Assembly: GCA_028289645.1 (NCBI GenBank)
Contig: JANQOK010000007.1
Location: 62,001 to 126,000, forward strand
Reading direction: 5' to 3'
DNA length: 64,000 bases
From: Anderseniella sp.
Lineage (GTDB): Bacteria; Pseudomonadota; Alphaproteobacteria; Rhizobiales; Aestuariivirgaceae
The position numbers and the translations under genes are program-made. The stretch's first letter is position 1. Every line of letters starts with the position of its first letter. Below the pieces are notes generated by a model. It was not told the DNA's origin and searched no databases. It was given only the letters and a program-made list of their open reading frames with translations. Of this stretch, positions 24,393 to 45,599 are shown piece by piece.

Positions 24393-24482
24393 GGAGAGGT
24401 GCCAGAGTGGTTGAATGGGGCGGTCTCGAAAACCGTTGAGCGTGCAAGCGTTCCGGGGGTTCGAATCCCCCTCTCTCCGCCA
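24393..24482 (+). tRNA. tRNA-Ser (anticodon CGA)
   Basis: A 90-base class II tRNA with a long variable arm. Acceptor GGAGAGG pairs with TCTCTCC (one G-T), the anticodon arm carries CTCGAAA (CGA, reads UCG), the T arm is GGGGG-TTCGAAT-CCCCC, and the discriminator G is followed by an encoded CCA. The nearest neighbours are rplU on the left and a lower-GC accessory cluster on the right. Confidence 0.96.
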
Positions 24483-42278: not shown

Positions 42279-43250
42279 ATGGAAAAAACCAACCTGAAAT
42301 CGGTGTTGCTGGGGGCAACCGCATCTGTCTTTCTGCTGGCCGGACTGAATGTCCAGGCGCGTGCGGAGTTTCCCGAAAAGCCTGTCGAAATGACAGTACT
42401 GTTCGGTGGCACGGCACAGACCATCGGCCAGTTGCTGGCCGATCTGATGTCGAAGAACCTGCCCAATCCTGTGGTTGCCGTCAGCCGTACCGGCGGCGGC
42501 GGTGCGGTCGGCTATTCACACGTGCAGTCAACGGCTGCCGATGGTTACAACATGGTGTGGAATTCCAACTCGGTGAGCACGTCACACTATCGCGGCAACA
42601 TGAAATTCAACTATGAGGCCTTTACGCCGATTGCCCGGGTGAGCGTCGAAACACCGGCGCTGGCGGTCAATGCGGAATCGGGCTGGAAATCACTCGAGGA
42701 CATGGCCAACGCTGTGAAAGCCGGTGACAGCAAGCTCAAGGTCGGCATTTCCGGCAACGGGTCGTTCACCCACCTGACGTCGGCCGCCCTGTTCGACAAG
42801 ATGGGCATTGCCGACAAGGTGGTCTATGTGCCGTACGGCAAGGGCAAGGCTCCGGTTGAACTGCTGGCCAAGCGGGTGGATGCGGCTGTGCAATGGCCGG
42901 GCCAGTTCATCCCGCACCAACAGGCCGGTAAACTGTCGATCCTGTGCGTGACCGGCAAGGACCGCATTCCGCAGCTCAAGGATACACCGTCGTGCGCCGA
43001 GGCCGGTGCAACGGATCTGAACATCACCATGTGGCGCGGCCTGGCGGCACCGGCCGGCACGCCTGCCGATGTGGTCGGCAAGCTGCAGGACGCAGCCAAG
43101 GCGGCGATTGAATCCGATGAGTTCCAGTCGGCAGCCGACAAGATCGGCTTCGAAGCCTCGTTCCTGCCGGCGGATGAATTCGGTTCGCTGATTGCATCGG
43201 ATGATGCTGCTATCAGCGACCTGATGGGCAAGCTCGGCCTGAAGAAATAG
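42279..43250 (+). CDS. tctC: Tripartite tricarboxylate transporter substrate-binding protein (Bug/TctC family)
   Basis: 323 residues with a signal peptide (LGATASVFLLAGLNVQARA) and the Bug fold: PEKPVEMTVLFGGTAQTIGQ, VAVSRTGGGGAVGYSHVQST, VVYVPYGKGKAPVELLAKRV and WRGLAAPAGTPADVVGKLQD. It captures an organic acid in the periplasm for the TctAB permease. The ATG has a GGGAGG site. A short hairpin (GCCCG-CGA-CGGGC, 42242-42254) sits just upstream of it. The position inside the catabolic cluster suggests that it binds the pathway substrate or a carboxylate intermediate. Confidence 0.92.
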   Translation: MEKTNLKSVLLGATASVFLLAGLNVQARAEFPEKPVEMTVLFGGTAQTIGQLLADLMSKNLPNPVVAVSRTGGGGAVGYSHVQSTAADGYNMVWNSNSVSTSHYRGNMKFNYEAFTPIARVSVETPALAVNAESGWKSLEDMANAVKAGDSKLKVGISGNGSFTHLTSAALFDKMGIADKVVYVPYGKGKAPVELLAKRVDAAVQWPGQFIPHQQAGKLSILCVTGKDRIPQLKDTPSCAEAGATDLNITMWRGLAAPAGTPADVVGKLQDAAKAAIESDEFQSAADKIGFEASFLPADEFGSLIASDDAAISDLMGKLGLKK

Positions 43251-43260
43251 GCAGAGTGTT

Positions 43261-43758
43261 ATGACCTCACGCCTGCCCGATATCATACTGAGTACCATAC
43301 TGCTTGTGGTATCGGCACTTTGGTGCTGGGGAGTGGTTGCCACTATCCCCGGCGCCGAAGACGGCTCGCGCCTGGGCGCCAGGGGGTTTCCCCTGGGTCT
43401 GGGCCTGCTGCTGGGCGGGTTGAGCCTGATTGTTCTGTTGCAAAGTCTGCGACCGGCAGCGGTCGAAGCATCCGATGAGGAGGCTGCGGCCGCCGGAACT
43501 GCCCGTGGGGTTGAGGTCTGGGCGATTGCCGCCACCGTCGGACTGCTGGTCGCTTATGCGGTGCTGCTGGAATACACCGGCTTCATGATCGCGACCGCAC
43601 TGGTTGTGGCCACTGCGGTCGGGCCGGTGCTCGGTATCTGGCGGCCGAAACTGATCCTCGGGATGTCGCTGGGCCTGTCCCTCGGCATCTATCTGGTGTT
43701 CGGAAAACTGCTGGGCGTTTACCTGCCATACGGCAAACTGATCAACCTGGCGTTCTAG
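43261..43758 (+). CDS. tctB: Tripartite tricarboxylate transporter small membrane subunit TctB
   Basis: 165 residues with four predicted membrane segments (LPDIILSTILLVVSALWCWG, PLGLGLLLGGLSLIVLLQSL, VWAIAATVGLLVAYAVLLEY, and the C-terminal LILGMSLGLSLGIYLVFGKL). It is ten bases after tctC. Its stop codon TAG is formed at the left edge of the inserted MITE: the TA is the duplicated target and the G belongs to the element. Removing the element leaves the same TAG. Confidence 0.9.
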   Translation: MTSRLPDIILSTILLVVSALWCWGVVATIPGAEDGSRLGARGFPLGLGLLLGGLSLIVLLQSLRPAAVEASDEEAAAAGTARGVEVWAIAATVGLLVAYAVLLEYTGFMIATALVVATAVGPVLGIWRPKLILGMSLGLSLGIYLVFGKLLGVYLPYGKLINLAF

Positions 43759-44056
43759 AGCGAGAGATAGTTGGTTTGGAACATTTGATGGCGGAAAATC
43801 GGTTCACTCAGCTAGGCGCGCCGCGCAGCGCGATGTGGTGCATCGGGCAAGCGGCGCAACAACGCCGATGGACCGATTTTCCCCACCCTGAAAGGAGTCA
43901 TCATGTTGAGAGAATTGGTGAATGGGCCGGGCGATTTTGCCCTCTGGCGTTGTTGGATCGCACTTGTGGTGGGACTACACCACGGCGCGCAATCCGCCTA
44001 GCCAGTGACCAAAATCGCCGCGGTCAAATGATCCAAACCAACTATCTCTCGCTCTA
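43756..44056. mobile_element. 297-bp IS630-type MITE inserted between tctB and tctA
   Basis: Terminal inverted repeats of 34 bases match at 33 positions: CTAGAGCGAGAGATAGTTGG and the next 14 bases at 43755-43788, and their complement at 44024-44057. The two-base duplication TA (43756-43757 and 44055-44056) sits in CTAG at both ends, the target preference known for IS630. The repeats continue imperfectly inward, so the element can fold into a long hairpin. It has no transposase. A 32-codon ORF (43903-44001) with an AAAGGAG site lies inside. Excision of one TA plus the element restores a 25-base junction in which the tctB stop overlaps the GGAG site of tctA. Confidence 0.85.
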
Positions 44057-44066
44057 GGAGCAAGGC

Positions 44067-45599
44067 ATGGACGCATTCGCCAGTGCCCTGGGTGCCGTTT
44101 CAGACCCGTTCACGCTGCTTGCCATCGTGGCTGGTGCGATCATCGGCATCGTGTTCGGCTCGGTGCCGGGCCTGACCTACTCCATGGCCCTGGCGCTGGT
44201 GCTGCCGATCACCTTCAAGTTCGACACCAGTGCTGCCGTCGGCATGCTGCTGGGCACCTATATCGGCGGCATGACGGGAGGGTCGGTATCGGCGATCCTG
44301 CTCGGAATTCCGGGCACGCCGTCGGCAGCGGCGACTGTGCTTGACGGCTACAAGATGACCCGTAGCGGGCGCGCCGGGCTGGCCCTGGGCGGCGCGGTCC
44401 TGGCCAGCGGGTTCGGCGGTATCTTCAGCCTACTGGTGATGATCGTCTCGGTGGATCTGGTGGCCCGGCTGGCCATCCAGTTCGGGCCGGTGGAGATATT
44501 CGCGCTGGTGCTGTTCGGCCTGTCGACGATCTGCGGGCTGGCCGGCAAGTCGCTGGTGCGTGGCATGATTGCCGGCGTCATCGGCCTGCTGCTGATGACC
44601 ATCGGCCTGGACGACATGGATGGTGTCGCGCGCATGACGTTCGGCTGGACACCGTTGCTGCAGGGCGTCGACCTGCTTGTGGCCATGGTCGGGCTGTTCG
44701 CAGTGCCGCAGATCATGAAGACACTGATCGACTACAAGCTCGACCGGGCATTCCGGCTGAATGCGTCAGGCGTGCGCAGCGAACTGCCCTCGTTCAGGCA
44801 ATTGCGCAGTTCGTTCTGGCTGATGTTGCGCTGCTCGGCCCTTGGCACCGGGGTCGGCTCGATCCCGGGCACGGGCGGACCGATTGCGGCTTTCCTGGCC
44901 TATGATCACGCCAAGCGGTTTTCAAAGGAACCGCAGCGCTTCGGCAAGGGTAAGCTCGACGGGGTGATGGCACCTGAATCAGCCAACAATGCCGTGACCG
45001 GTGGCGCCATGATCCCGCTATTGTCGCTCGGCATCCCGGGTGATCCGGCAACTGCCGTGATGCTGGGCGGATTTCTGATTCACGGGCTGGTGCCGGGGCC
45101 GATGCTGTTTGCCAGCAACAAGACCGAAGTCTATCTGATCTACCTGGCGATATTCGTGTCCTATGTCACGGTGGTGGTGTTCCAGTATTTCGGCATTCGC
45201 GGCTTCGTGAAGCTGTTGCGGGTGCCGCCGCACTTGATGGCGGTGGGCATTCTCATCATGTGCGGCGTCGGCACCTTTGCCATCCGCAATTCGTTTCTCG
45301 ACGTCTACATGATGGTCGGTGTCGGCCTGATCGGCTATCTGCTGATGCGGGCGCGCATCCCGGTGACGCCGATTATTCTCGGCCTGGTGCTGGGGCCAAC
45401 GCTGGAACGGGAATTCCGCACTGCGGTGATCATGTCGGAGGGCAGTTTCGGGGTGTTCTTCTCGTCAACTACGGCGTTGATTTTTTATGCGCTGACCATC
45501 GCTGTTATCAGCTTCCATTTCATCGGCCAGATGCGCGATGCAAAGAAGACGCGGGACGCAGCTGGCAGCAAGAAAACACAACAGCAGGGGGCAGGTTGA
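44067..45599 (+). CDS. tctA: Tripartite tricarboxylate transporter large membrane subunit TctA
   Basis: 510 residues with about 12 membrane segments and the family signatures FGSVPGLTYSMALALVLPIT, SVSAILLGIPGTPSAAATVL, and MAPESANNAVTGGAMIPLLS. It forms the sodium- or proton-coupled permease with TctB. The GGAG site before the ATG is the one that adjoined tctB before the MITE inserted. The element may affect coupling of tctA to tctCB, though the downstream genes appear intact and continue in close order. Confidence 0.95.
   Translation: MDAFASALGAVSDPFTLLAIVAGAIIGIVFGSVPGLTYSMALALVLPITFKFDTSAAVGMLLGTYIGGMTGGSVSAILLGIPGTPSAAATVLDGYKMTRSGRAGLALGGAVLASGFGGIFSLLVMIVSVDLVARLAIQFGPVEIFALVLFGLSTICGLAGKSLVRGMIAGVIGLLLMTIGLDDMDGVARMTFGWTPLLQGVDLLVAMVGLFAVPQIMKTLIDYKLDRAFRLNASGVRSELPSFRQLRSSFWLMLRCSALGTGVGSIPGTGGPIAAFLAYDHAKRFSKEPQRFGKGKLDGVMAPESANNAVTGGAMIPLLSLGIPGDPATAVMLGGFLIHGLVPGPMLFASNKTEVYLIYLAIFVSYVTVVVFQYFGIRGFVKLLRVPPHLMAVGILIMCGVGTFAIRNSFLDVYMMVGVGLIGYLLMRARIPVTPIILGLVLGPTLEREFRTAVIMSEGSFGVFFSSTTALIFYALTIAVISFHFIGQMRDAKKTRDAAGSKKTQQQGAG

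Follow-up and report, generated by a model that had tools for sequence, protein, structure and literature searches.

ERIC, Correia/NEMIS and RUP are small, gene-less folded repeats that insert at TA, IS870 of Agrobacterium inserts in CTAG, some miniature elements (MITEs) are derived from IS630, and the RIME elements of rhizobia are palindromic. A repeat comparable to these lies between tctB and tctA in the window analysed here, a stretch of 64,000 nucleotides from an Anderseniella genome of 4.8 Mb in 23 contigs. With IS630-derived MITEs and IS870 it shares the duplication of TA, the preference for CTAG and a stop codon at the junction, but its arms are unconserved between copies, its interior is conserved, and its own genome has no match to an IS630 domain. 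TA insertion and folding are common to this element and to ERIC, Correia/NEMIS and RUP, from whose usual descriptions it is set apart by size and anatomy, namely a three-way fold with two inverted modules.

REPINs, doublets of REP sequences which form hairpins in single-stranded DNA or mRNA (PMC3116915), are nearest in logic to the present element. In the available part of their description they are, like our element, non-autonomous, extragenic, inverted doublets of a short module (PMC3116915). REPs, however, were tracked there as 16-mers, whereas our module comprises about 100 nt; furthermore, our element has a TA duplication and a near-constant outer stem, and none of the six congeneric genomes has a match to a Y1 transposase. 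The RIMEs, reported as intergenic repeats of unknown function in Hyphomicrobiales, share the intergenic location, and the accessible part of that report describes neither a TA duplication nor a module anatomy (PMC2573895). The intergenic repeats R200 (320 bp, 47 copies) and R178 of Pseudomonas fluorescens SBW25 (PMC2718517) are of roughly similar size and come from a genus with a plasmid copy of our family. RIMEs and R200/R178 were compared by description only, and on these partial accounts R200 or the RIMEs could be local names of the family, which was not found as such in the literature searched, a body of text that leaves most subscription journals outside its coverage.

The element occupies positions 43756..44056 on the plus strand (299 bp from TA to TA plus one duplicated TA), as delimited by its sequence, the pairing of its arms and the empty site of congeners. 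It follows tctC (42279..43250) and tctB (43261..43758) and precedes tctA (44067..45599), all on the plus strand and identified as TctC, TctB and TctA by Pfam matches. The sole tRNA gene found in the window, a tRNA-Ser (CGA), is located at 24393-24482. An earlier note on this DNA had described inverted ends of 34 bases with one mismatch, and this description was reproduced (arm length 34, score 31, the flanking C/G counted in); a separate search for inverted arms gave 54 nt with 83% complementarity. The TA duplicated inside CTAG, also reported there, can be read directly at either end. A transposase gene is indeed absent from the element, which together with the terminal inverted repeats and the target duplication agrees with the description of a MITE.

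The proposal that the empty site can be rebuilt was confirmed by the congeners: none of the three congeners with matches to both flanks (G001, G004 and G005) carries the element at this site. The empty site reads GGCATTCTAGGAGCGCGGCATGG in G001 and GGCATTTTAGGAATAACCGATGG in G005, in each case with nine bases from the tctB stop to the tctA start, and by their coordinates the flank matches in G004 are separated by 6 bases. G002 and G003 gave no flank match at tctBA and are thus outside this count. The tctBA copy is an insertion, missing from the congeners tested. Its leading G completes the TAG of tctB, as the note had recognised, and TctB remains complete, since the element regenerates the stop codon into which it inserted. 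The predicted fold is more stable than chance (z-score −12.5 as RNA and −11.2 as DNA), none of 100 shuffled sequences being as stable, and this prediction makes it plausible that the element influences the translation or the mRNA of tctA.

A consensus layout was derived from 52 and later from 138 aligned elements and consists of two hairpins, H1 and H2, which are joined by a linker and enclosed by an outer stem P1. In the window copy, the 5′ arm of P1 (TAGAGC...TTTGA; 43756..43788, plus strand) pairs with the 3′ arm (44024..44056, plus strand), a pairing supported by covariation. The outer stem comprises about 33 bp and is closed by TA. Module H1 (43789..43885) is in top-strand sense, with a profile match at 43784-43887 and, on that strand, more G.U than A.C pairs. 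It is separated by a linker (43886..43926, plus strand), which contains the ATG of a short open reading frame and is long in the subfamily of about 300 bp only, from module H2 (43927..44023), which is the H1 module inverted and in bottom-strand sense. Indeed, in the window copy H2 is matched by the H1 profile on the minus strand (44028-43932, E 0.0033). Each module has two conserved internal loops and a core motif of roughly AGGCGC ... GCGCAG-hairpin-CAAGC ... GCAACG, which recurs outside Alphaproteobacteria. Among neighbouring module pairs not more than 60 bp apart, 24 of 25 are in +- order (overlapping loci left in), and the distance from TA to module is 28 bases in 95 and 26 bases in 27 of the 138 copies. 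The set of 52 elements resulted from 53 by removal of L027b, and alignment A1 contains 51 of these 52, without L024.

The two arms of one copy are 90% complementary (positions 7-28), whereas the arms of different copies are only 39% alike (138 copies). Terminal repeats common to all copies, as usual for MITEs, were not found among them: only the outer hexamer recurs, as TAGAGC in 77 and as TACCAA in 25 of the 138 copies. This set was obtained from 231 module copies, of which 53 were dropped for want of arms, followed by repeats among the remaining 178 and by 19 of 157 without TA at both ends. When the search started from the modules alone, an inverted-arm score ≥14 was still reached by 170 of the 184 fully flanked module copies, among which an element can be represented twice, by each of its modules, compared to 2 of 400 control windows, so that arm pairing is not an artefact of selection and the bias is small. 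Insertion into larger palindromes was also considered, and complementarity of the flanks past the first base was at most slightly above chance. It is the fold that is conserved and not the sequence of the ends.

Covariation was quantified in 42 diverged elements (alignment A2), consisting of the window copy and 41 of 44 representatives with less than 75% identity; L241, L225 and L196 were left out for odd lengths. Changes on both sides were seen in 86 of the 95 predicted pairs. Standard pairs make up 92.7% of cells, compared to 70.9% after shuffling and 34-42% with the pairing slid, and double-change cells number 819 versus 223. The paired share is about 95% in P1, 89-98% in the helices of H1 and 85-99% in those of H2. 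The two modules differ in their wobble pairs. Read on the top strand of 44 diverged copies, and with base pairs left out in which one non-Watson-Crick type reaches 50%, the ratio of G.U to A.C is 93:31 in H1 (GU share 0.75, bootstrap 0.67-0.83) and 43:113 in H2 (0.28, bootstrap 0.20-0.36). As A.C on one strand corresponds to G.T on the other, H2 read from the bottom strand behaves like H1. Selection on a folded single strand in each module would leave such an opposite bias, and judging from these substitution patterns both modules appear to function as folded single strands, RNA or single-stranded DNA, each with its own polarity. A stricter filter (≥70% Watson-Crick, 52 elements) gave the same direction in weaker form (H1 37:20, H2 29:47, P1 26:27), which tempers the claim of polarity.

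The earlier note had suggested a search for other copies in the genome, and a DNA search yielded five further copies and a solo end. With the H1 covariance model 8 matches at 7 places were obtained in the own genome, which represent six elements, the inverted partner of one element and a seventh place (C14:152835). Short matches to an element end without the remainder occur at G000:C16:29238-29279 (L014) and G000:C9:35952-36016 and are perhaps remnants of deleted copies. Module matches, some of them inverted partners, number 15 in G001, 17 in G003, 68 in G004 and 34 in G005. Congener G002 has none, and at 85% completeness of its assembly loss is indistinguishable from never having gained the element. 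Modules were matched in 58 of 297 genomes drawn from the order, in 41 of 385 drawn from the class and in 34 of 398 drawn from the phylum, which are rough figures, as these draws overlap, each includes the own genome, and few candidates were scored per genome. The exact core pattern occurs in at least 118 stretches of named genomes, with Anderseniella, Roseibium, Nitratireductor, Ahrensia, Pelagibius, Kiloniellaceae and Rhodospirillaceae among the matches listed, and the matches are spread widely in Alphaproteobacteria. Cultured hosts with copies include Roseibium sediminicola and a Nitratireductor sp.

Outside the class but within the phylum, 18 of 20 copies have arms with a score ≥14 compared to 1 of 200 control windows, with lengths of 264-287. 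Two of these out-of-class copies were used as blastn queries and led to plasmids of Comamonas odontotermitis (one record), Azotobacter chroococcum (two) and Pseudomonas aeruginosa (one), the plasmid searches yielding few records in total (1, 1 and 3). The assignment to Gamma- and Betaproteobacteria rests on these plasmids. Three of the copies, one from each species, were read, and all three have paired arms at TA and a length of 268-271. The alphaproteobacterial H1 profile matches only the Azotobacter copy, weakly (E 0.011), and fails on the other two; the kinship of the plasmid copies is therefore based on blastn similarity to copies found by the covariance model. Two of the three lie close to a gene reading toward them, with 5 and 14 bases between the end of the blastn match and the stop of that gene, and behind these two follows the next gene on the same strand. 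No match was obtained in viral contigs with the strict pattern or in phages with one out-of-class copy as query. Rfam 15 gave no family over the gathering threshold for the window copy or for 20 loci, and loosened thresholds yielded sub-threshold matches only. The freely varying yet paired arms, the inverted module doublet inside them and the matches in other classes had been overlooked in the earlier reading of this locus.

The bases flanking TA are C/G in 56, A/T in 29 and T/A in 18 of the 138 copies. For the analysis of gene ends 107 of the 138 copies were used, those with less than 330 nt of flank being left out. In 49 of these 107 the TA lies within a stop codon ending at least 100 open codons (45 by a stricter count), compared to 26.5 expected from context-matched TA sites of the same loci, so that over half of this count is due to the context of the TA. 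Within CTAG only, 28 of 42 sites and 74 of 167 control sites are stop codons. In the context ATAT such a hit is impossible, and none was seen in 24 copies or 918 control sites. All 49 cases belong to the 78 elements starting with TAG and none to the 23 starting with TAC; the gene end adjoins H1 in 27, H2 in 14 and both in 8. The stop codon of tctB is therefore a typical site, kept where the element restores the stop, and the common use of stop codons follows largely from CTAG targeting.

We consider it probable that the tctBA copy belongs to a large family of non-autonomous elements defined by their fold, which insert at TA, are moved in trans by a DDE enzyme, contain two single-strand modules and, as at tctBA, may come to lie in stop codons. 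Such an element would enter at TA, most often in CTAG, and thereby duplicate the TA. Its mover would be a TA-duplicating DDE transposase acting in trans, at best guess of the IS630 or the IS5/IS427 type, and would presumably need little beyond the outer tip (TAGAGC or TACCAA) and the paired arms. The two inverted hairpin modules inside the outer stem would each be selected as a folded single strand, RNA or single-stranded DNA, with the polarity suggested by the wobble pairs, and every strand of the element would carry one working module at its 5′ side. At tctB, the target was rebuilt by the incoming element and TctB preserved.

The designation "IS630-type" given to the element earlier agrees with the TA duplication and the CTAG target but not with the own genome, in which no match to PF13358 (IS630), PF13340 (DUF4096) or PF01797 (Y1) was obtained. 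These three domains were also without match in G001, G003 and G005 despite their 15 to 34 module matches, while PF13358 has matches in two of the six genomes of the genus. The suggested search for a full IS630 with the same ends led to G004, the congener richest in module matches. Its IS630-type insertion sequence (L271 1372-2466) has the ends TAGAGCGG, lies between TAs and has an interrupted transposase frame; the tip TAGAGC is shared with our element, but the inner arm differs. G004 also has a DUF4096 insertion sequence with TAGGGTCC ends. Larger insertion sequences with modules at their ends were not seen among nine module pairs at least 100 bp apart, judged from spacing and orientation only; one of these pairs is inverted, at a distance of 5 kb.

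The element might instead be an ordinary IS630 MITE, that is an internal deletion derivative moved by an IS630 transposase, with folding as a by-product of its inverted ends. The TA duplication, the CTAG target, the missing transposase gene and the G004 insertion sequence with TAGAGC ends and TA flanks are all consistent with such an origin. We nevertheless regard it as rather doubtful, since the interior modules and not the arms are conserved between copies, the own genome, G001, G003 and G005 have no match to an IS630 DDE domain, and the agreement with the ends of the G004 element is confined to the outer hexamer.

Pairing of arms can also be maintained by palindrome correction, in which template switching between the arms preserves complementarity without selection on structure. 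Indeed, the mismatches in P1 are strand-symmetric in the 44 diverged copies (29 G.U and 24 A.C, GU share 0.55, bootstrap 0.41-0.67), and selection-free copying from arm to arm would give the same result. Correction of this kind may explain part of P1. As an account of the whole element it is unlikely, because the wobble polarity of H1 and H2 is opposite, the internal loops are conserved and the arm length is nearly constant.

An inverted doublet of modules with wobble pairs on each module's own strand comes close to what is described for REPINs in the accessible part of PMC3116915, and the two sense modules could accordingly be read as single-stranded DNA hairpins by a Y1 transposase of the RAYT type. 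PF01797 matches none of the six congeneric genomes, although the same search matches 5 of 14 control genomes, and a Y1/RAYT partner was thus looked for there without success. Furthermore, a TA duplication is not known from REPINs, and a REPIN-like mode of movement is very unlikely. That the element is a cis-regulatory RNA of the tctBA operon, as its location at the junction of tctB and tctA and its very stable predicted fold could suggest, is hardly credible given the three congeners with both flanks and no element at the site and the annotated plasmid copies, which adjoin unrelated genes.

We tentatively put forward, as a possibility well short of an expectation, a mobile class present throughout proteobacteria whose recognition unit would be the folded strand, with opposed modules (RNA or single-stranded DNA) in a stem of fixed length and arbitrary sequence ending at TA. 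The usual view is that a transposase recognises its element by the sequence of the ends, and here the end sequence drifts. As pairing, arm length and modules persist at the same time, a structure-reading step in mobility or a role of the transcript is called for. Altogether, the element seems to belong to a widespread family that is maintained by its structure. Genomes with dozens of module matches are natural replicates, and with covariance models of the family, intergenic regions that are so far unexplained would be annotated, among them stop-codon insertions between the genes of an operon.

A reading frame of 32 codons with its own ribosome-binding site had also been pointed out inside the element. 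The frame exists (43903..44001 with its stop, plus strand), but it is judged to be a chance one. A start codon is found at the homologous place in 16 of the 26 elements of about 300 bp, and seven of the 26 have a frame of 31-34 codons (one frameshifted), with the same peptide intact in six including the window copy. Within the linker part, variability is 0.256 at the first, 0.212 at the second and 0.178 at the third codon position, without third-position excess. The frame has no Pfam match and shows no coding signal.

Some copies deviate from the consensus layout. A subfamily with the ends TACCTCGTCGCAGAGATTTTGA comprises L027 (1349-1607) and L040 from genome G082; in L027 the second module matches as a sense module too. 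In the copy L024, H1 is interrupted close to the CAACGACG loop by about 26 inserted bases. Tandem or clustered modules occur in L036 (1241-1608, genome G096) and L153, with a spacing of 160 bp between the modules of L036.
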